Part shown: positions 1,581 to 13,278 of the stretch, piece by piece
Position numbering within the stretch: the first letter of the stretch is position 1
Layout: each line of letters begins with the position of its first letter
Source: a virus
DNA length: 21,112 nt
Virus record (IMG/VR): IMGVR_UViG_3300012189_000012
Span: 1-21,112 of that record
Direction: 5' to 3' (one strand)
Notes under the pieces: generated by a model
The model's input: only the letters and a program-made list of their open reading frames with translations
The model's database searches: none
Told to the model about the DNA's origin: nothing
Translations under genes and position numbers: made by a program

Positions 1581-1991
1581 ATGCAAAAACCATTCACCCT
1601 CACCGACGAAATGGCCCAGGAGCTTGCCAATGAAGTCTCGTCGCTCGCGCCCCAAGGGGATGAAGCAGCACATGACCCCACTGGAGCGCGGGCTTTCGCG
1701 CCAAAGCTACGCAGAAGGCAGATCGATCGACTACATAGCGAAAGCGATGCACCGAGACCATCGAACGATCAGCAGGTTGTTGAAGAAGATCCAATCAACC
1801 CAAGCCACTACCGACGACACCCAAGCGGAATAGAATGCATTGATATCACAGAACACATGCTCTTCAACCCAGGCAACGCGGTGAAGTACATCTGGCGGTA
1901 TATGGATAAGGGTGATCCAGTGGAGAACCTTCGCAAGGCACAGTGGTATTTGGAACGGGAGATATTGAGGCTGACTCGAGTTCCTCGATGA
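1581..1991 (+). CDS. DUF3310 protein with long N-terminal extension
   Basis: 136 residues from ATG 1581, with GGAG at 1570-1573, 7 bases upstream. The DUF3310 signature occupies about residues 71-131: DPINPSHY, then GIECIDITEHM, FNPGNAVKYIWRYMDKG and ENLRKAQWYLEREI. DUF3310 is common in phages, often near nucleotide or replication genes; its biochemical role is not settled. No ATG, GTG or TTG occurs in this frame between 1581 and the domain, so the first 70 residues must be part of the protein unless an unusual start is used. That extension looks low in conservation and overlaps a helix-turn-helix ORF in another frame. The stop TGA overlaps the next ATG (ATGA). Confidence 0.75.
   Translation: MQKPFTLTDEMAQELANEVSSLAPQGDEAAHDPTGARAFAPKLRRRQIDRLHSESDAPRPSNDQQVVEEDPINPSHYRRHPSGIECIDITEHMLFNPGNAVKYIWRYMDKGDPVENLRKAQWYLEREILRLTRVPR
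1672..1833 (+). CDS. Nested 53-aa helix-turn-helix ORF
   Basis: It lies wholly inside the DUF3310 gene, one frame over. The product (MTPLERGLSRQSYAEGRS, then IDYIAKAMHRDHRTISRLLKK) reads as a compact helix-turn-helix of the GcrA/resolvase-tail type: a helix, a turn after AEGRS, then IAKAMHRD and a recognition helix RTISRLLKK. An alternative ATG at 1660 adds four residues. AAGGGG at 1654-1659 lies 12 bases before ATG 1672, longer than ideal. The helix-turn-helix pattern is too good to dismiss, but overlap with a second coding frame lowers certainty. Alternatively it is joined to the N-terminus of the 1581 ORF by a +1 slip at CCCC near 1650. It could be a small regulator. Confidence 0.5.
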   Translation: MTPLERGLSRQSYAEGRSIDYIAKAMHRDHRTISRLLKKIQSTQATTDDTQAE

Positions 1992-3100
1992 CTAAGCCCA
2001 TCCTCCTCATCGGCGAGCAGCGCGGTGAAGCGGAAGCCCGGATCAATCGAACCTTTGTAGGCGCTACCGGTGCGGAGCTCCTCCGCATGCTTGCCGAAGC
2101 CAGTGTGATCTCCCTCACCAACCTTGATTCTGCCCACCTGCGTACCTTCTGGACCACCCGAGACCCATGGTCCCTCGATAAAATCTGGGAGAACCATCGT
2201 GAAACACTCATCGCCACCAACGTCTTCAACATCTACCCGCCCGGGAACAAACTCGAATACTTCTGCGGAGGGAAAGCAGCTGCCCTCCCAAACTACGCCA
2301 AGCTTCTCAAAGCCGGGTATGTTAGATCTGAGTTCGCCCCGGAACTGGATCGTCTGGGGGATGAAATCCTTTCTCATGATCCTAACCTCATTGTCGCTCT
2401 GGGGAATACTGCTATATGGGCTTTGTTGGGGACTACTGGGGTACGGAAACTACGGGGCACAACCGCTGTTAGCACTCATTGCGTTAGCGGGTATAAGCTT
2501 TTGTGCACTTACCATCCTAGCGCTGTTCACAGGCAATGGGAGTTGCGACCCACAGTAGTCTCCGACCTATCCAAAATCAACGATGAAAAGGACACCGCGA
2601 ATGTTGAACGCCCGCCAGTCGAAATTTGGACAGAACCCACGCTTGAAGACATCCAAACCTTCTTCGACAAGTTCGTTAGATTTGGACGTTGCCCTCTCCT
2701 TTCTATCGATATTGAAACAACTGGCACCCGGATTACCTGCATTGGATTCGCTCCCAGACCAGACCTTACACTCGTTGTTCCATTCGATGACGAGCGCGCA
2801 GAGTCGGGAAGCTATTGGGCTACTCCGCAGCTTGAACGACAATGCTGGCAGCTTGTTCGTGAGGTGCTTGAGGATAGCACAATCAAGAAGCTCTTCCAGA
2901 ATGGGATGTATGACATCGCCTTCACGCTTAGGAGTTACAAAATCAAAACGCTAGGTGCGATCCACGATACGATGCTATTGCATCACGCGTTACAGCCAGA
3001 GAGTTTGAAGAGCTTGGGGTTTCTGGGATCGATCTACACCAACCATGGACCGTGGAAATCGGAACGAAAGCGGAGTGATACAGTGAAGAGGGATGCGTGA
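1988..3100 (+). CDS. Uracil-DNA-glycosylase-like domain fused to DNA polymerase proofreading exonuclease (motifs I-II)
   Basis: 370 residues. ATG 1988 overlaps the previous stop (ATGA); the longer start at 1943 would intrude on DUF3310. Residues 1-195 match the family 4/UdgX-like uracil-DNA glycosylase fold: GEQRG (9-13) and FVG (23-25), TNVFNIYPPGN (77-87), and the HPS motif (176-178) in CTYHPSAVHR. The Cys of family 4 after NVVK is Asn here and the N-terminal CxxC is absent, so an iron-sulfur cluster is unlikely. Residues 236-350 are the DnaQ-like exonuclease of family A polymerases: motif I DIE (241-243), motif II N305-x3-D309 in FQNGMYDIAF, then HDTMLLHHAL. Exonuclease motif III is not in this ORF; it is in the next. 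This is a likely glycosylase/proofreading subunit of the phage replisome. Confidence 0.85.
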   Translation: MTKPILLIGEQRGEAEARINRTFVGATGAELLRMLAEASVISLTNLDSAHLRTFWTTRDPWSLDKIWENHRETLIATNVFNIYPPGNKLEYFCGGKAAALPNYAKLLKAGYVRSEFAPELDRLGDEILSHDPNLIVALGNTAIWALLGTTGVRKLRGTTAVSTHCVSGYKLLCTYHPSAVHRQWELRPTVVSDLSKINDEKDTANVERPPVEIWTEPTLEDIQTFFDKFVRFGRCPLLSIDIETTGTRITCIGFAPRPDLTLVVPFDDERAESGSYWATPQLERQCWQLVREVLEDSTIKKLFQNGMYDIAFTLRSYKIKTLGAIHDTMLLHHALQPESLKSLGFLGSIYTNHGPWKSERKRSDTVKRDA

Positions 3101-4650
3101 AGATCATTCACACCAACTCAACCACCCCAGCCGACATCAAAAACCAATGGGAGCGAGACCAAATCTACAACGGCCTGGATTGCGTCGTCACCCTCGAAGT
3201 CTTCAACGCAATCCATAGCCAGCTTGACGCAACCACCGCCAAGACCTATGCATTCTCCCGCGCTCTGCAAGGTCCGGTGTTGGAGATGAGATGCCGAGGA
3301 AGCTTAATTGATAACCACCGCAAACGTGAGGTCATAAATGAATTCCACGATAAAATCGATTATCTCGAACGCAGTCTTTCTCGTATCGTGCTGGACGGTG
3401 TGGGCATGCTCAACTTCAGCTGGCGAAGCCCTCCTCAAGTCATGGAGTTGTTTTATAATCATCTGCAAATCCCCACGATCAAGAAGCAAGGCCGCCCAAC
3501 AGCTGATCGCGATGCATTGGAGAAGGTCCGCGCCTTCACCGTAGCCAAGCCGATCGTGGCGCATCTGATCGCGCTGCGTGAATTGACGAAGAAGATCGAA
3601 GCCCTCGAAATGGGAGTAGACAATGACGGACGAATGCGAACATCGTACAACATCGCCGGAACGAATACAGGGCGCTTTAGCTCTAGCTTTAGCGAATTTG
3701 GCACTGGCGGAAACTTTCAGAACGTGGAGGAAAGTCTTAGAAGCATATTCATTGCCGATCGAGGATGTAAATTCGCCAAGTTCGATGCGAAGAGCGGTGA
3801 ATCCTACATCGTCGGAGCAATAGAAGGGAACCTTTTCAATGACTGGAGATACCTCGATGCTGTTGAGTCTGGAGACGTGCATACAGCTGTTGCTAGAATG
3901 TGCTGGCCGGAGCTTGGTTGGACGAATGATCTTAGAACGGACAGAGCAATCGCTGAACAACCCTTCTACCGACATTACGATTACCGCTTCATGTGTAAAA
4001 AGCTCGGACATGGTTCGAATTACGGTGGACAACCACACACCCTCGCCGAGCAAACCAAACTCCCTGAGCGAGTGGTCTCGCAGTTCCAGCCCAAATACTT
4101 CGGTGCTTTTCCTGGGCACCTTGAACGCCTTAGGTGGACCGACACTCAACTTAGTCGATTGGGATGCCTTACGACGCTTACAGAAAGAAAACGATGGTTT
4201 TTTGGCAGGCGAAGTGATCCTGCTACCCAACGGGAAGCTTATGCTTACGATCCCCAAGGAAGTCTTGCCGACATCGTGAATCGTGCCATGCTCCGCATCT
4301 GGCGAGCCCGAACAGCCGATGTGGTAATTGTTTTCCAAGACCACGATGCATTGACATTCATGTACCCCGAAGAGCGTGAGGACGAAGTCATCCCTGCGCT
4401 CCACTCGGCCCTAGGCGAAGATATTACCCTTCACAACGGTCGGGTAATGCGTATTCCATATGATTGCAAAACGGGATGGAACAAAGGAGAATACTGCTGT
4501 GGGGATCGAACCCAACCCGGGTGTGACCGATGTAACAAACAACAAAACCTCGACGGGCTCAGGGATTGGAAAGGAGGGGACCAACGGACACGCACTCCGT
4601 CGGAATCCGAGTTGGATAAACTTCTTCGTGGACTCAACCGCAAGACTTGA
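3097..4650 (+). CDS. Family A DNA polymerase catalytic subunit (carries exonuclease motif III)
   Basis: 517 residues. GTG start 3097 overlaps the previous stop as GTGA, implying coupled translation. Exonuclease motif III, YNGLD (24-28) followed by CVVTLEVF, opens the protein. The polymerase domain follows: TNTGRFSS (189-196), motif A with catalytic D230 in AKFDAKSGES, motif B KKLGHGSNYGG (301-311), and motif C QDHDA (414-418) with D417. GWNKGEY (460-466) marks the usual end of the fold. About 50 further residues (CCGDRTQPGCDRC, then NLDGLRDW and a basic tail) run into the next gene. It copies phage DNA; complete proofreading would need both ORF products or a joined form. Catalytic aspartates are intact, so it should be active. 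Confidence 0.93.
   Translation: MKIIHTNSTTPADIKNQWERDQIYNGLDCVVTLEVFNAIHSQLDATTAKTYAFSRALQGPVLEMRCRGSLIDNHRKREVINEFHDKIDYLERSLSRIVLDGVGMLNFSWRSPPQVMELFYNHLQIPTIKKQGRPTADRDALEKVRAFTVAKPIVAHLIALRELTKKIEALEMGVDNDGRMRTSYNIAGTNTGRFSSSFSEFGTGGNFQNVEESLRSIFIADRGCKFAKFDAKSGESYIVGAIEGNLFNDWRYLDAVESGDVHTAVARMCWPELGWTNDLRTDRAIAEQPFYRHYDYRFMCKKLGHGSNYGGQPHTLAEQTKLPERVVSQFQPKYFGAFPGHLERLRWTDTQLSRLGCLTTLTERKRWFFGRRSDPATQREAYAYDPQGSLADIVNRAMLRIWRARTADVVIVFQDHDALTFMYPEEREDEVIPALHSALGEDITLHNGRVMRIPYDCKTGWNKGEYCCGDRTQPGCDRCNKQQNLDGLRDWKGGDQRTRTPSESELDKLLRGLNRKT
4483..4489 (+). promoter_or_regulatory. Shine-Dalgarno inside polymerase gene deciding the ATPase start
   Basis: AAAGGAG at 4483-4489 lies 9 bases before GTG 4499, which is in the ATPase frame. 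The upstream in-frame ATG at 4460 has no comparable site. This favours GTG 4499 as the start of the downstream ATPase and means the two coding frames overlap by 152 bases. Confidence 0.65.
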
Positions 4651-5815
4651 GAGCCCAAGGGTGTTCCGACTCTGGGCAGCGATTAGCGTGATTGGCGCAG
4701 CGGTGGAGCAACGAGTTTGGATGATTAGCCAGGGAAGGAAGGTTTACCCGAATTTGTATTGCGGACTAGTTGCACACCCGGGGGTTGGGAAGACGAAGAC
4801 GATACATACAGCGAGGGATTATTATATGGAACTGGCTGAGCCGAAGTTGGCCCCGACGACAATGACCGCGGCGAGCATGGTCAAGGCGTTGAAGGCAAGT
4901 GCGCGGACGGTGATGCATATGCCCGAGGGAACGTTTACGTATAATACGATGTATGTGACTGCGGATGAGCTCACGGCCTTCATGCACAAATATGATGAGG
5001 AAGCCGCAGGGGTGATGTCGCATATGTATGACGTCAGTGTCTACCGCCGGACCCGGGTCACGGATAACATTGATATCAAAATCGAACGCCCGCAGCTCAA
5101 TCTCATCATCGGTACACAACCATCAATGCTCATGAACTACCTCCCGGAACGTGCCTGGGAGCAAGGGTTTTGCTCACGCACAATATTCGTTTTCTCAGAC
5201 GAAAGGACCGTCGGCGATGATTTTGAACAAGTGGACACTGCGCTTGATGCAGACCTTACTCATGATTTGCTTAGTATATCTGGGCTGGTTGGAGCGTTCG
5301 GGATTACTCCGGAATATCGAATCGCGGTTAACAATTGGCGAGCCTTGGGAGAGCCACCCATCCCAACCCATCCCAAGTTGCTCCACTACTGCACCCGGCG
5401 GCGCATGCATTTGTACAAACTATCAATGGTCTCCGCAATCGACCGCAGCGACGTGCTTCTCCTTACCGTTGATGACTTCAACCGCGCGCTGACTTGGCTT
5501 GTGGAAGCGGAGGCAACCATGCCGGATATATTCAAGGCCGGTGCAGGGAATGCGGATGCGAGGGCAATGGATGAGATTTATCACTTCGCGCTGACGTTGG
5601 GAGTTCAGCCAACGTTCAAAGGCGGGATACCCGAGCGGAAGATAATGGACCACGCTAGGCAGTTGGTGCCGCTACACACGCTAGATCGACTGATGAAGCA
5701 TATGGAAAACACCGGCCTGCTGATCCCCACAACCGCTGCGGATTACAAAACCGGCCAACGCAAATGGCGGGCCGCAAATCCACATATTGAGAAACCCACG
5801 GATGGAGAGGTCTGA
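4499..5815 (+). CDS. DUF3987-like P-loop ATPase, probable replicative helicase component
   Basis: 438 residues from GTG 4499 (ATG 4460 would add 13). After a disordered Thr/Asn/Gly-rich leader, the conserved part starts at NPSWINFFVDST. The Walker A motif is AHPGVGKT (about 92-99), an acidic strand TMYVTADEL lies near residue 155, and LNLIIGTQPSMLM (sensor-1 position) is followed by EQGFCSRTIFVFSDE. This order matches DUF3987-type ATPases, which often form the helicase half of phage or plasmid primase-helicases. No primase domain is visible. The C-terminal part (from about 370) looks like a small winged-helix region. Position after the polymerase supports a replication role. The helicase assignment is inferred. 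Confidence 0.75.
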   Translation: MGIEPNPGVTDVTNNKTSTGSGIGKEGTNGHALRRNPSWINFFVDSTARLESPRVFRLWAAISVIGAAVEQRVWMISQGRKVYPNLYCGLVAHPGVGKTKTIHTARDYYMELAEPKLAPTTMTAASMVKALKASARTVMHMPEGTFTYNTMYVTADELTAFMHKYDEEAAGVMSHMYDVSVYRRTRVTDNIDIKIERPQLNLIIGTQPSMLMNYLPERAWEQGFCSRTIFVFSDERTVGDDFEQVDTALDADLTHDLLSISGLVGAFGITPEYRIAVNNWRALGEPPIPTHPKLLHYCTRRRMHLYKLSMVSAIDRSDVLLLTVDDFNRALTWLVEAEATMPDIFKAGAGNADARAMDEIYHFALTLGVQPTFKGGIPERKIMDHARQLVPLHTLDRLMKHMENTGLLIPTTAADYKTGQRKWRAANPHIEKPTDGEV

Positions 5816-6628: not shown

Positions 6629-7273
6629 TTATAAAGGCTTGTCAAACCACGATACTTCAGCTTCACGGCGGGCGGTTAACCCAACGTTCACCGCACCTCC
6701 AGCGTGGTTATACTGGAGGATATCTGCTTTGACTGTATCCCATTTGGCGGCTTTGACCGCTGCGCCGAGGGACTCATGTTCCCAGCCTGAGCCTGCGTTG
6801 TAGGTCAGGTCGGTCAGGGCTTGTTGGATGCCGATTGGGGTGTCAGCTGGGATCACTTGCTCGGCGAGTTTCCAGGCCTTATCGACCTCCACGGTTAGGC
6901 GGGCCAAGGCTTCGACCTCGGTGATGACTTCGGTTGGGGAGGTGGCCTTGGTGCCATAACCGATGGAGTATTGTTTGTAGTCCCAATAGGCCTTGGATCG
7001 GAAGCCTTCTTCCTTTTTGATATAGTTCACCAGACCCTGATCGACAATGTCAACCGGTTGGGTGGAAATCGGTGCCGGGGAAGGTACGGGGGGCGCAACC
7101 TTCCCCGGCCTCGGCACAGGTGGAGGTGGAGTGGAACCAACTGCCTCCGGAGCCTGCGCTCGAGCGAGTGCGCGATCGGTGACCCCGATCATGCGGATTA
7201 GGACGTAGATGAGAGCTAAGGATTGGATAGACAGCGCGCCGATTACTAGGACCAAGACGTATTCGTTCATCAT
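6629..7273 (-). CDS. Membrane-anchored GH24-type lysozyme (endolysin)
   Basis: 214 residues. ATG 7273 overlaps the stop of the giant virion gene (ATGA), with AAAGGAG 9 bases upstream; the next Met codon at 7270 is further away. Residues 5-29 form a strong N-terminal hydrophobic segment. A Pro-rich linker (about 45-72) follows, then the lysozyme domain to the end. The catalytic motif reads KKEEGFRSKAYWDYKQYSIGYGT: Glu and Asp nine apart as in T4 lysozyme, with Ser where T4 has Thr. LTDLTYNAGSG and LTARREAEVSWF are further GH24 signatures. It cleaves peptidoglycan at lysis. The segment may be a signal-anchor that keeps the enzyme tethered until release; it is more hydrophobic than classical SAR segments. 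Confidence 0.9.
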   Translation of the reverse strand: MMNEYVLVLVIGALSIQSLALIYVLIRMIGVTDRALARAQAPEAVGSTPPPPVPRPGKVAPPVPSPAPISTQPVDIVDQGLVNYIKKEEGFRSKAYWDYKQYSIGYGTKATSPTEVITEVEALARLTVEVDKAWKLAEQVIPADTPIGIQQALTDLTYNAGSGWEHESLGAAVKAAKWDTVKADILQYNHAGGAVNVGLTARREAEVSWFDKPL

Positions 7274-10200
7274 CGTTCCACTCTCCTTTGGGCCTCACCG
7301 TGGATAATCCCGCGGATGACTTCGTTGAGATTGCGCGGGTTCTGTTGGCGATTGTAGACGTCTAGGCCGAAGCGGGCTGCGTTGCCAATGACCTTTGGAG
7401 ACATACCAGTGGCTTCGCCAAGGACGGTGATGGTGTCTTGAACGGTCTTGCCTGCGTGTTCACGGGTCATGGAGCGGGATGGGTTTGTGACATCGCGGTA
7501 CATCTTCGCAGCGTCGTGGGAGAATGAGCTGAGTAGTCCAACACCTGGATCGTGGGCCGTGACTAGGCCGTGGATGAGGTCTCGGGCGTAGAGGACAGAG
7601 GATGAGATTCCACCTGAGGCTGCACTGGCAAGGTACGCAGGCCAGGATTCATTACGCTGGGTAGCATAGCTGCGGACCGCTTCCTCTATAATGGTGGGCC
7701 AGACAACATAGGTCATGAAATTGGCGACGAATGATGGGAGGTGGGCTGCTACCTTGGCGAGTTCCTTCTCCCGGCCCAGCTTCCACATATCATTGGCTTG
7801 ATAAGCGAGTTCTAGGCGACGCTGCATGGCAGTGCCGAAGAAGCCATAGACGGAGGTGAGGAAACGGTTAAGTTGGCCACCACCAAGGACCAAAGGCGGT
7901 TGGTTGGTGATGGCTGTGGAACCGTGGGCTCGACGTACTGCACGTTCACCGAGGGTTACAGCATCACCATGGGAGAGACCTTCACCTCGAGCTGTGTCAT
8001 AAACTGCTAGTGCGGTTGGCTTGGCAGAGACCATGTCGGACCATGCTACCCCAGCTGCACCCCATTGCATCATCTTGGCGCGGAGATTGGAGGTCTGCTC
8101 AAACTCATTCTGTTGAGCGCCAAACGTATCCTGCCAATGTCGTTCGCGGCGTTGGATCTCCTCAAAGTTGGCCATTACGAAATCATGGTCTTGAAGCGCG
8201 ATGTCGAGAGACTGACCATAGAGTGTATGCACAGCGTTAGCGTATTGCTTCACATCCACACCGCCAAACCTCGCGCGAAGGAACGGGACAATCCCAGCTT
8301 CTTTCATCGACCAAACCCAAGCTGTCGGCCCGTGCTTGGCGATGGTGCCGACATTGCCAGCAATGTAGGTGGAGGTTATGTTCTGCCGGAATTTCTCAAG
8401 GAATGAATTGGCGCGGGCTTCGTTCTTGGAGGCTGAGCCAGCTGAGCCTGAGATACGCTTTAGGTAAGGCATCAGGCCATCCGCGTATTCCTTGCCATAG
8501 TATTTGGCAACATCGGATTGGAACCGTCGATCCGCGAAGATCTTTTGTGTTTCGATGATGGGTTCGCGGAAGTTGATATCGTGGATCATTTGAACAAGCG
8601 AATTGGGAGTCATATCGAAGCGAAGATCCAGCGGGTAGATCGCGCCGGTCCGGGATTTGGTGTAGCCGTTGGCAGTGGCAGAGTGGTAGAAATCGGTGGA
8701 GTTGTAGACATCCTCGCGTTTGCCTACGTCTTTCTCATGCCATAGACCGGCGACATCTTGGGTCCAGAGATTGCGGATTGGGTCGCGCTTGAGGGGATGG
8801 TACCAGCCAGGGTAGGTGGCCTTGGTACCATCCGCGAAGGTGACTTCAATCGGCTTGAGGTTGATCTTCTCGAACGGTGCACCGACGATGCGTTCGTACA
8901 TGTTGCCGGAGAGTTTCACGTATTTGGTGAAGATATCGCCGAGTTTCTGGGCCCGATCCCAGTCAGCTTTGGTTGAATTGCGCCCAAGCCATTTCATCGC
9001 CGCTTCGGGTTCGATCCCATATCCGCCAGCGAGAACACGCAGGTTGGATTCGTTCCCAGCGTTGTTGATCATTTGATAGACATGGCCTTTGGTAAACCCT
9101 GTCCAGCCACCGGAGTCGGGTGAGTTTGGATCGAAGGTCAGCGGGTCGGCGAACGGAGCATCCACAAGCTTTGCTATATCCTTCGGCCGGTCAATCTTGG
9201 CAATCAGCTTAGAGGCCTCGCGGAGCATTGCGGATTCGCCATTGGCAGCTTTGCTTAGCGGATAGCTAAACGTCCGGTTGAATATCCCCCAAGGGTCATT
9301 CCGATCCCAACGATTGAACATGGTCTCCTTGGCGGTTAGGCCGTAGACAACGAGCCTTGGGAACTGTGCGAATGGGCCCGGTTCAGCTTTGGATGGGGTT
9401 GTGCCGAACGTGGAAAGCTTATCCCTCATCTCTTGCTTGGTCCCAACCAAATCCCGTGCCTCGCCTTCCACATAGATCTTCTTCTCATCTCGACCAGCTT
9501 TGATAAGCATGTCGATGGCGGATTTGAAATCTTGAAACTGGGAGTGGCTCAGTGTATCCAGCTTCTGCCGGAACCCAGCATCTTGGATAAACTCCGCGAT
9601 CGGCAAATCTCTCTGTCCGTTCCACTCCTCAGCCTTTTCACGTACAAACGCGGCAAGCGCCGTCGACGTCTGGCGGCCGAGATTCTCTTGCAGGTCTTGT
9701 ATGCTACGATTGACAGGATAACCCACCCGGTTAAGCAAATCATGAACCCAATTAGTGTAAGTCGTTGCGACACTGGCTACCTCTCGTTTGCGGAAGGTCT
9801 TGGCGGTGCGGTCGAGTTGGCGGCGATCTCGTTCGTAGGTTCGAGCAAGCTTGGCGGCTTCGAGGGAGTATTGGCGCTGTTGGGAAAGGCGATAGGCTTC
9901 ATCCCATTTGCCTTTGGCTCCGGCTTCCTCGATCTTCTTGCCGATCTTGAGAGCGTTCTGGAGCAAGCGATCGGATTTGATCTGGCCAGTGGGGACTTGG
10001 CTGAAGGCCTCTTTGACCATGCCTTTGACTTCGTCGTGGGTGAATGGAGGTGCCAATCCACCCTCACCACCTTTTTGTAAAGGCCGGAGCTTATTGCCAT
10101 ACTCCTCAGGCAGCTCGAAATTTCGGTAGCGGTTGTTGATGTCATCATATCCACTAGCGAGTTCGGGTTTGGTCTTCATCTCATCTTCAGGGATGTCGAC

Positions 10201-13200
10201 ATAACTAACCTTGCGATCACCGGTGCCATAGTTACGAGCATAGTCTTCTTGAGTAGCCACCCAACGTTTGCCACTAGGCTTCTCGTCGTAGTGACCATGG
10301 TAGAATCTAACCGCCCCAGGCTTGACTGGTTCGGTGGGCAATGCACCGGCCTTGAGTGCATAGGCGAGGGTTTCCTCGTGGACCAGCTTCATCTGGGTTT
10401 CGCTAAGGGCTTGGTCTTTGGCCTCCTCAAGGATGTGTGCTTCGCGGTCACCGAACTCTTGGTTCAATCGACGATCGGTTTCAACATCGATGAGGCGATT
10501 GAGGTAATCGCGAGAAGACATACCAGACCGACGCCGATCTTCGGTCATCATGCCGAGACGTTCGACCATGGCGTCCCCAGAAGTGTAGCCGAAGTGCGGA
10601 GCGAGTTCGTCTGGGTTGACGCCGTCCTTTTTCTGGATGTAGTCTTTTGGCAATCGGGCTTTTTGCTCATCGGAGAGATAGTCTGGGTGGAACTTGACGC
10701 CGTATTTTGTCATGAATTGATCAGTGGCGATATCGGGTCGGCCGGTGAGTTGCTCGCGGACCTCGTCGCGGAGGACGGTGCGACGATCTTTCCAATCTGC
10801 GTTGGATCGTCGCCGTTGGCGAAGTTCAGCTCTGCGCGAGCTGGCCTCGAAGTCTTCTTTATTCCGCTTTTCGATTAGCTTCAACATCCGATCCATGTGG
10901 GATTGGGTGACGCCAAGGGCTTTGCCGCGGTCATAGAGACCAAAGGATTCGCCTTCTTTAGTCTGGGCCAAAGGTTCATGGCCACCATCCAATCGTGCCT
11001 GGGCCAACGCTGGAGCTTCACCTTCCTCAGGCTCCAACTCACGCCTCCCAACCCGACCAACATCAATCTCCTTGAAGATATCCTCCCAGCTCAGGTCCTT
11101 GCCTAGAGCTTCATTGATCCGCCGACGCACACCTTCCATGAAATCTTTGATCTTCTGGAAGACTGTGTCGTCCTTGAGAACCTCCTCACCCTTGCGCCAG
11201 GATTGATAGGCTTCGGCGATGGCTTCCTCGTGTTGGACGTCTTTGGAGAAGTTCGAGTATCGGCCTTCGATGTCGAATTTCTTCAGCCAGCCTTGGTCCG
11301 TCGCGGCCTTGGCCAAAGAATCCCATTCTGCGTCGGTGAAGAAACCTTCTCGAGCAAGGAAGTGAATGGCTTCATGTCGCAGTGTGTCAACCGCACCTTT
11401 ATTCTCCATAGCCACAAACATCTTGGCTGTGGAGGGTTGGAACAATCCACGAACCAAACCACCGGCTTTGGGGTAGTAGATCGCCGAGGGTGTTTCCACC
11501 TTGGCTGTGGGAACGATCCGGCGAGCCTCGGCAAGCACAGCCTCGCGAGTAGCCTGCTCAACTGGTGTCCAACCAGCTTCGGGCTTTTGGAGAACTTCGA
11601 CGTTGTCGGAGATAGATTGCCAGTATGGTTGGAGGAGGTCGCGGAAGGTTTGGGGATCTTCGCCGAGTTGGAGCTTGACCGTTGGGATGGACTTCTTTGG
11701 ATCCATGATTACATGTTCGCCAGCAGCATCACGTGCGCCGGTTACTCGGTGACCAGTAATGGACTCAGCGTTGGGGAACATGGCTTTGAGCTGAGATTTG
11801 ATATCGCGGACTAGGCTGGGCCCAAGGAAGTTGGGTTGATAGAACCCTCGCTGTTGTGGACCAGCGTTGATCATTTCAATGTAAAGCTGTTTGCCATCTT
11901 TAGCTTCACTCAAGTTGATCTGACCTATGAGTGCGCCCGTTTCATCATGCATATCAATATCATGAAAGGGTGGTAGACCTTGCTTCTCATTGTAGTCAGC
12001 CTTGAGACTCTCAACTCGTTGTAGAGTGACCTTGCGATCGCCAGCCATGGCGAGGGGTTCGAGACCGGCCGATGCGCGGAGGGAAGAGACTGGATCGGCG
12101 ATGGCCTGCTTGGGTTGGGATTCAATCTTCATCTCGTCGAGAGTTGGCACTCCATCCCGAATGGAGATATGATCGTGTAGGGCTTTGTGGATGTCAGGTT
12201 CGGTCTTGGCAAGGTAATCGGCCAATGGGACGGAGATATCCGCGCCAGCCGCTTCGGCGATGGGAAGGGATTCGGTTATGCCTGGGACCCAGCCGAGGAT
12301 GCCGTCGTCGGGAGTGGGGGATTTGTCTCCGTAGAGTCCGCGGATGGCTTCTGCGTTGATTCGAATCGTGCGATCGCCAAGTGGGCCGCGGAGGAAGTTG
12401 TCGGCGAAGAGATCTGGGCTGCGTTCACGGGTCGCGGATTTGGCGGATTCGGACATTGCACCATCGAGGGCACGGATGTCTTCCCGGGCTTGGATTTCCT
12501 TGGCTTTGTCGATGAGTGGGTGAAGGCCTAGGGGAGGTTCGCGGCCGATCTGGGTCCACGGGTCGGCAAGTTGGAGACCGCTAGCGACGGAGCGGATGTG
12601 TTCCAAAGCCTTGGTGTTTTGTTCAACGCGCTTGAGTGGACCACCTTCTGCGTGGACGCCGATATCGCCCCGCATCATTGCCCACTCAGCCATCGCGGCG
12701 AGTTCGTTGGCTGGACCTTCGCCGAGGACGTGGGAGATGCCATCATGGCCGAGGGAGATGAGGCCACCGGCTGCTCGGGACATGAACTCAACCGGGGTGG
12801 CGATGGTCATAGCCAACGCACCCATCTCCGGATGCGACATGGCGAATTCAACATCACTCGGGCGGGAGAGGATTGAGGAACCTAGCGGAGCATCCCCATA
12901 CCCGCGCATGAAGGATTCGGACATCGAATCGGACTCTAGCCATTTCTGGAGTCGGGACTTCTGGCCAATACCTTCGAGAGATTGGGAAACGTTATCGAGT
13001 TGGCCCAAGTCGTCGTGGGAGATGCGGGCCGCGAGAGGATGGGAGTTGATGTAATCGACGATGTGTTCGTTGTCGTTGATGATCTGCGAACCCAGGGTTG
13101 CTTTGTGGGTTCGTTCGAAGCCGTCAACATCGCCGTAGATAGTAGTGGATGGAACTCCAGTTGCATCGGAGAGATCGATCGCACGCGCGGCTTGCTCTGG

Positions 13201-13278
13201 ATCGTCGTCAAGCGCAGCGGCGTTGGCGCGCTTGGCAGCACCAACCTCTTCGGCGAGGAAGTCGCTATAGTCGGTCAT
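7270..13278 (-). CDS. Giant internal virion protein (gp16 position, large polyvalent type) with metallopeptidase motif
   Basis: 2002 residues, against about 1318 for T7 gp16. It sits in the gp16 position, after gp15-like and before lysis genes, so it is probably packaged and ejected with the DNA. Visible parts: a conserved block with NFLRGPLGD and DISVPLADYLAKTEPD (about 290-385); a region resembling an acetyltransferase fold (about 420-520); a zinc-peptidase motif HEAIH (H635, E636, H639) with EEAIAEAY (684-691) as candidate third ligand; charged coiled coil (about 780-900); a segment with VRFYHGH near 990 resembling ADP-ribosyltransferase-like domains; and a long C-terminal region like LPD38-type domains, with a hydrophobic segment near 1842-1862. 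ATG 13278 overlaps the previous stop (ATGA). Metallopeptidase is supported by motif only; the ribosyltransferase call is weak. Confidence 0.85.
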   Translation of the reverse strand: MTDYSDFLAEEVGAAKRANAAALDDDPEQAARAIDLSDATGVPSTTIYGDVDGFERTHKATLGSQIINDNEHIVDYINSHPLAARISHDDLGQLDNVSQSLEGIGQKSRLQKWLESDSMSESFMRGYGDAPLGSSILSRPSDVEFAMSHPEMGALAMTIATPVEFMSRAAGGLISLGHDGISHVLGEGPANELAAMAEWAMMRGDIGVHAEGGPLKRVEQNTKALEHIRSVASGLQLADPWTQIGREPPLGLHPLIDKAKEIQAREDIRALDGAMSESAKSATRERSPDLFADNFLRGPLGDRTIRINAEAIRGLYGDKSPTPDDGILGWVPGITESLPIAEAAGADISVPLADYLAKTEPDIHKALHDHISIRDGVPTLDEMKIESQPKQAIADPVSSLRASAGLEPLAMAGDRKVTLQRVESLKADYNEKQGLPPFHDIDMHDETGALIGQINLSEAKDGKQLYIEMINAGPQQRGFYQPNFLGPSLVRDIKSQLKAMFPNAESITGHRVTGARDAAGEHVIMDPKKSIPTVKLQLGEDPQTFRDLLQPYWQSISDNVEVLQKPEAGWTPVEQATREAVLAEARRIVPTAKVETPSAIYYPKAGGLVRGLFQPSTAKMFVAMENKGAVDTLRHEAIHFLAREGFFTDAEWDSLAKAATDQGWLKKFDIEGRYSNFSKDVQHEEAIAEAYQSWRKGEEVLKDDTVFQKIKDFMEGVRRRINEALGKDLSWEDIFKEIDVGRVGRRELEPEEGEAPALAQARLDGGHEPLAQTKEGESFGLYDRGKALGVTQSHMDRMLKLIEKRNKEDFEASSRRAELRQRRRSNADWKDRRTVLRDEVREQLTGRPDIATDQFMTKYGVKFHPDYLSDEQKARLPKDYIQKKDGVNPDELAPHFGYTSGDAMVERLGMMTEDRRRSGMSSRDYLNRLIDVETDRRLNQEFGDREAHILEEAKDQALSETQMKLVHEETLAYALKAGALPTEPVKPGAVRFYHGHYDEKPSGKRWVATQEDYARNYGTGDRKVSYVDIPEDEMKTKPELASGYDDINNRYRNFELPEEYGNKLRPLQKGGEGGLAPPFTHDEVKGMVKEAFSQVPTGQIKSDRLLQNALKIGKKIEEAGAKGKWDEAYRLSQQRQYSLEAAKLARTYERDRRQLDRTAKTFRKREVASVATTYTNWVHDLLNRVGYPVNRSIQDLQENLGRQTSTALAAFVREKAEEWNGQRDLPIAEFIQDAGFRQKLDTLSHSQFQDFKSAIDMLIKAGRDEKKIYVEGEARDLVGTKQEMRDKLSTFGTTPSKAEPGPFAQFPRLVVYGLTAKETMFNRWDRNDPWGIFNRTFSYPLSKAANGESAMLREASKLIAKIDRPKDIAKLVDAPFADPLTFDPNSPDSGGWTGFTKGHVYQMINNAGNESNLRVLAGGYGIEPEAAMKWLGRNSTKADWDRAQKLGDIFTKYVKLSGNMYERIVGAPFEKINLKPIEVTFADGTKATYPGWYHPLKRDPIRNLWTQDVAGLWHEKDVGKREDVYNSTDFYHSATANGYTKSRTGAIYPLDLRFDMTPNSLVQMIHDINFREPIIETQKIFADRRFQSDVAKYYGKEYADGLMPYLKRISGSAGSASKNEARANSFLEKFRQNITSTYIAGNVGTIAKHGPTAWVWSMKEAGIVPFLRARFGGVDVKQYANAVHTLYGQSLDIALQDHDFVMANFEEIQRRERHWQDTFGAQQNEFEQTSNLRAKMMQWGAAGVAWSDMVSAKPTALAVYDTARGEGLSHGDAVTLGERAVRRAHGSTAITNQPPLVLGGGQLNRFLTSVYGFFGTAMQRRLELAYQANDMWKLGREKELAKVAAHLPSFVANFMTYVVWPTIIEEAVRSYATQRNESWPAYLASAASGGISSSVLYARDLIHGLVTAHDPGVGLLSSFSHDAAKMYRDVTNPSRSMTREHAGKTVQDTITVLGEATGMSPKVIGNAARFGLDVYNRQQNPRNLNEVIRGIIHGEAQRRVER

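Follow-up and report, generated by a model that had tools for sequence, protein, structure and literature searches.

Gene content of the locus

The window, meaning the whole stretch of 21,112 nucleotides analyzed here, is a viral record of 21 kb that carries phage-family genes for tail, internal virion and endolysin proteins. Its replication genes form a cluster in the order Sak4-like, SSB-like, DUF3310, P1, P2 and DUF3987 (Table 1). P1 joins a uracil-DNA glycosylase (UDG) fold to motifs I and II of a DnaQ-superfamily exonuclease. An earlier note, made from the sequence alone, had recognized glycosylase landmarks and DnaQ-type exonuclease motifs in this single open reading frame, and all motifs it named are found as placed. 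The Pfam domains UDG (PF03167; residues 4-186, E 3.7e-12) and DNA_pol_A_exo1 (PF01612; residues 234-346, E 4.3e-7) both score above the gathering threshold. The AlphaFold model of P1 has a mean pLDDT of 90.6. In VIA-align comparisons, residues 1-205 match the Thermus family 4 UDG 1ui1 (Z 17.6, rmsd 2.1 over 151 residues) and UdgX (Z 17.4), which bears out the expectation that the first 195 residues adopt a UDG fold, and residues 211-364 match residues 325-479 of Klenow, in its exonuclease part (Z 14.2). The best Foldseek match of P1 is the phiLo polymerase (9qhs). Elsewhere in the window, an open reading frame of 2002 aa on the minus strand (7270-13278) matches phrog_9880, a family of unknown function.

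Table 1. Features of the replication cluster around P1 and P2, with positions in the window.
Feature	Position	Strand	Basis
Upstream DUF3310 gene, ATGA overlap with P1	1542..1991	+	PF11753
P1, 370 aa, ATG start, TGA stop	1988..3100	+	UDG domain and exonuclease motifs I and II
UDG-fold domain, P1 residues 1-205	1988..2602	+	PF03167; VIA-align Z 17.6 to 1ui1
UDG motif A, GEQRG	2012..2026	+	Family 4 GE[A/G]PG, P replaced by R
FVG motif of the P1 UDG	2054-2062		Motif position in sequence
TNVFNIYPPGN, with uracil-binding N78 and N87 at the family 4 N80/N89 positions	2216..2248	+	Alignment; residue roles from PMC10359453
UDG motif B, HPS	2513..2521	+	Alignment
Exonuclease motif I, DIET (D241, E243)	2708..2719	+	Invariant, 59/59
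Exonuclease motif II, QNGMYD (N305, D309)	2897..2914	+	Invariant, 59/59
GTGA overlap, P1 TGA within the P2 GTG start, -1 frame	3097..3100	+	Insertion site in relatives
P2, 517 aa, exonuclease motif III and family A polymerase domain	3097..4650	+	PF00476 E 3.2e-32; alignments
Exonuclease motif III, YNGLD (Y24, D28 of P2)	3166..3180	+	Invariant, 29/29
Polymerase motifs A (KFAKFDAKSGES), B (RFMCKKLGHGSNYG) and C (QDHDAL)	3769..4353	+	Alignment, P2
Downstream DUF3987 / phage primase-helicase-like gene	4601..5815	+	PF13148; phrog_14296

A family A polymerase divided within its exonuclease

The exonuclease motifs of the locus do not lie in one chain. Motif III is absent from P1 and is found instead as YNGLD at residues 24-28 of P2, and all exonuclease catalytic residues are present once both genes are considered. 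P2 itself is a family A DNA polymerase, carrying the PF00476 domain with motifs A, B and C. The two proteins match phrog_17 ('DNA polymerase') one after the other, at profile positions 547-787 and 807-1232. Since P1 and P2 match one PHROG in order and motif III opens P2, we conclude that they constitute one UDG-exo-PolA polymerase in two chains. We consider it quite probable that this is a single family A polymerase of UDG, exonuclease and polymerase domains, split inside the exonuclease between motifs II and III. The earlier note had tied the UDG to a replicative proofreading exonuclease. That link stands, but P1 appears to be the N-terminal part of a polymerase with a cut exonuclease rather than a free-standing UDG-exonuclease.

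Conservation of the break across a phage lineage

A single-sequence scan of IMG/VR returned 20 relatives of P1 with 62-87% identity, and a profile scan returned 523, of which 80 were kept. A profile search for the same domain order had been proposed in the earlier note. The number recovered, together with the confident model of P1 and its structural matches, shows that P1 is no chance product. P1 was identified in 83 loci, and the gene is split in every one of the 79 with P2 in view, the window and Caulobacter phage Kuura included. In these loci, P1 stops directly after a TIKRD-like tail (the tail differs in Kuura), 11-14 residues after its WK, while P2 starts separately at a common residue, which in nearly all loci lies 22-23 residues before motif III. 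Beyond the 79, seven more distant loci (L091, L092 and five bacterial-MAG contigs) are split alike, with the MAG-binned contigs showing 34-52% identity and a break at the same place. The nearest single-chain homologs belong to the Microcystis phage Mel-JY34 group, a sister group in which the domains follow one another as they do here. In a tree of concatenated P1 and P2 with 58 rows, the distinction between split and single chain is explained by one change (SH-aLRT 100). The tree of P1 only needs two changes, because the long-branch single-chain row L087 groups with Kuura-like rows. The break is fixed and old throughout a soil-phage lineage.

The four-nucleotide overlap with its change of frame resembles an indel, as an assembly or sequencing error in a single gene would produce. 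The break recurs in 79/79 loci, and in many of them entire genes separate the halves. This rules out such an error, to which we assign practically no probability. The earlier note had also allowed that P1 might be two separate genes joined by misassembly, an objection that fails as well.

Gene turnover at the junction

The spacing between P1 and P2 over the 79 loci is -4 nt in 20, -1 to 6 nt in 14, 60-120 nt in 3 and more than 120 nt in 42. The junction of the window holds no gene, and over half of the relatives carry small, varied genes there. The inserted open reading frames are mostly unrelated to one another, and many start at the same overlapping ATGA. Insert presence or absence changes 18 times among 45 rows. 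Pfam matches over the cut-off include endonuclease VII in four of ten scanned junctions (L017, L021, L041, L046) and HNH_3 in L038, with matches below the cut-off to HNH_3 in L037 and LAGLIDADG_3 in L012. The junction protein of L036 is nuclease-like and has no Pfam match. The junction is thus a site at which small genes, some of them homing-endonuclease-like, enter and leave. The gene is a single chain in relatives and split here, as in the pattern of the homing type, and an event of this type may have made the break. As the window junction carries no gene, we infer such an origin of its break from relatives only.

Additional junction genes were observed. A protein of 75-76 aa (MIDQIEAYNNERDAV...) without a confident Pfam match sits at the junction in L005, L006, L008, L009 and L031. 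The distant split relatives L123, L091, L092 and L122 have larger cargo genes, with several open reading frames in 1.2 kb in L122. Inspected by eye, one distant junction gene is HD hydrolase-like and one nucleoside deoxyribosyltransferase-like.

Programmed -1 frameshifting or intron splicing might restore one chain from such a gene pair, and P2 does occupy the -1 frame relative to P1 in the window, as it does in most insert-free loci. However, the frame of P2 relative to P1 is 0, 1 or 2 depending on the locus, no conserved slippery heptamer was found across the loci, and P2 starts at a conserved ATG or GTG even after unrelated inserts. Given the varying frames and the lack of a conserved heptamer, a single frameshifted chain is not the rule. 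Rfam introns were found neither in the window nor in 18 related loci. Both mechanisms were rejected, and we regard a restored single chain as very improbable.

Probable reassembly of the proofreading domain

The exonuclease residues D241, E243, N305 and D309 of P1 are invariant in 59/59 aligned sequences, single-chain ones included, as are Y24 and D28 of P2 in 29/29. All parts of the gene pair evolve under purifying selection (dN/dS 0.06-0.18). In L057, the two halves are in frame with one TAG between them, which enabled a read-through construct, with TAG as Q, to stand in for a two-chain model; its alignment also included fragments and relatives with a single chain. The model of 868 residues (pLDDT 87.3, pTM 0.81) matches Klenow 324-928 over residues 206-841 (Z 27.4) and M. 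smegmatis Pol1 over residues 210-842 (Z 30.0), with junction residues 356-367 disordered. Because the junction is disordered and the joined halves fit Klenow, the cut is predicted to fall in a loop and the fold to be whole when the halves meet. The two chains likely reassemble into a proofreading polymerase.

We suggest that a single message would give both P1 and P2, their translation being coupled through the stop-start overlap, and that P1 would bind P2 via the halves of the exonuclease domain, so that an active exonuclease site is rebuilt in trans. Positioned beside the primer-template, the UDG module might then remove, or at least bind, uracil in the template or in the newly made DNA. The break itself would be the scar of an old gene fission, at which small genes now come and go.

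Alternatively, P1 might be a separate repair protein made of a UDG and a vestigial exonuclease, with P2 an exonuclease-less polymerase and no reassembly. Each is a polypeptide with a start of its own, and more than 600 nt can lie at the junction, both consistent with independent proteins. Yet a dead exonuclease would not need motifs I and II in P1 and motif III in P2 to be invariant across the lineage, the end of P1 and the start of P2 always fall at the same structural loop, and P1 covers just Klenow 325-479 of the exonuclease. Independent proteins are hence an unlikely explanation. As two of the three exonuclease motifs are on a separate chain, P1 could also be conceived as a dissociable UDG-proofreading subunit. 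The phage could then run its polymerase in two modes, one that proofreads and senses uracil and one that does neither, and recruitment of P1, for example at template uracil, would switch between them. We consider this improbable.

Conservation and possible roles of the UDG module

E10, N78, N87 and H176 are conserved in 46/46 members of the clade containing the window, and F23 and R182 in 45/46. The catalytic set of known enzymes comprises E52, N91, H178 and R184 of UdgX together with N89 of the Thermus UDG (PMC10359453). These correspond to E10, N78, H176, R182 and N87 of P1, where the assignment of N87 to Thermus N89 rests on equal TN-to-PPxN spacing. In UdgX, H109 takes the role that N89 has in family 4 UDG (PMC10359453). 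P1 shares both the fold (Z about 17) and the catalytic E, N, H and R with family 4 UDGs (1ui0, 1vk2, 4zbx) and UdgX (6ajo), but differs from them in the missing Fe-S cysteines, in GEQRG instead of GE[A/G/Q]PG, and in a helical insert at residues 41-72. The only cysteines of P1 are at 93, 165, 173, 235, 251 and 286, which does not give the family 4 Fe-S pattern, and none of the aligned relatives has a cysteine at the KCRPP position. P1 lacks the family 4 motif A GE(A/G)PG, and the proline is replaced in 45 of 46 members (by R in the window and, in most relatives, by one of W, M, Q, K and R) and kept in one. The earlier note was right that uracil-holding residues are kept and that the iron-sulfur cysteines are gone. 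Its suggestion of a fold 'reduced for a new role' finds no support in this clade, where the family 4 catalytic E, N, N, H and R are kept in 45-46 of 46 members.

Judging from residue conservation, the UDG module is probably active. Uracil excision may be weakened owing to the loss of the motif A proline. The domain might instead have given up uracil excision and act in DNA binding or processivity, a reading that would be compatible with a split polymerase and that we consider less likely than not. Both the loss of the Fe-S cluster and the replaced proline are in line with a non-excising module. Among members of the single-chain sister group, L108, L111, L113 and L118 no longer have the N or the H of the pocket and retain the domain, so in that group its role may be structural. 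Such a module beside a polymerase is known from vaccinia D4, which is both a glycosylase and a processivity factor (PMC10253040). Nonetheless, a pure clamp would need none of the four pocket residues conserved in all members of the window's clade.

UdgX-type cross-linking was considered and rejected. The KRRIH R-loop with the cross-linking histidine of UdgX is not in P1, and Q in motif A occurs in just 5/46 clade members, the window among them. Genes for dUTPase, ThyA and ThyX were not found in 18 phage records, some of them possibly fragmentary, and a connection with a modified or uracil-containing genome is therefore not drawn. The helical insert (about 2108-2203) lies between motif A and TNV and is a feature of the window's clade, missing in Kuura and in single-chain relatives. 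The dS to close relatives is about 0.46 in the UDG part (1988-2602) versus about 1.0 in the exonuclease part (2603-3097), and this half-size value hints at recombination or extra constraint.

Relation to known polymerases

The fusion of UDG, exonuclease and PolA is already known from the SPO1 lineage, PaBG gp205 and the phiLo polymerase, whose structure has been solved (PDB 9qhs), all with the same domain order as P1 and P2 together. PaBG gp205 comprises a UDG, a 3'-5' exonuclease and a family A polymerase (PMC7412058), and UdgX entries in the PDB are titled 'Phage SPO1 DNA polymerase-related protein'. The SPO1-like, PaBG and phiLo polymerases are single chains or broken elsewhere, whereas here the cut passes through the exonuclease, after motif II and before motif III. 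In Goe2, it is the polymerase domain that is broken, with an HNH gene at the break. The Mel-JY34 DNA polymerase and its relatives, the nearest single-chain homologs found, have 29% identity to P1 and a DUF3987 gene downstream, but contain motif III (YNGKD/YNCKD) in the same open reading frame. The Kuura genes Kuura_029 and Kuura_026 (33% identity) are split at the same residue as P1 and P2, with two small genes between them.

Split phage polymerases have likewise been described. In T4-like phages, the chains of the split gp43A/gp43B (phage 25) and of nrdA in Aeh1 reassemble, and a homing endonuclease is found at the junction (PMC2988022). Those cases concern a family B polymerase or a ribonucleotide reductase, in contrast to the family A polymerase with a UDG studied here. 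The OM43 phages MEP401 and MEP402 encode a family A polymerase in two open reading frames with a small gene between (PMC10580990). There the break lies in the polymerase domain, with the exonuclease and part of the polymerase in the first frame, and the description of the split does not mention a UDG. Vibrio phage VS-ABTNL-3 also has a split family A polymerase with a break in the polymerase domain. The distinctive feature here is a fixed break inside the exonuclease, while UDG-PolA fusions and split phage polymerases were each known before. We found no report of such a break in the literature, though subscription papers may hold one.

The gene pair would represent a replicative polymerase with a built-in uracil module, in which the proofreading site is rebuilt from two gene products across a whole lineage. 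With split points provided by nature and two parts that have stayed together, it could serve for testing how far proofreading depends on chain continuity. In evolutionary terms, the locus would exemplify a gene fission whose breakpoint has since gained and lost genes repeatedly. The counterpart of P1 in Kuura is annotated only as a hypothetical protein, a warning for annotation.

Breaks at other positions occur among relatives of the single-chain group. In L004, L106, L107, L109 and L118, the gene is broken close to the NLQN motif of the polymerase domain, hence splits of this polymerase gene have arisen on more than one occasion and in different places. In L116 (4995-6421) and L117, an interruption separates the UDG domain from the exonuclease, with the UDG open reading frame ending after about 233 aa and the polymerase in another open reading frame.
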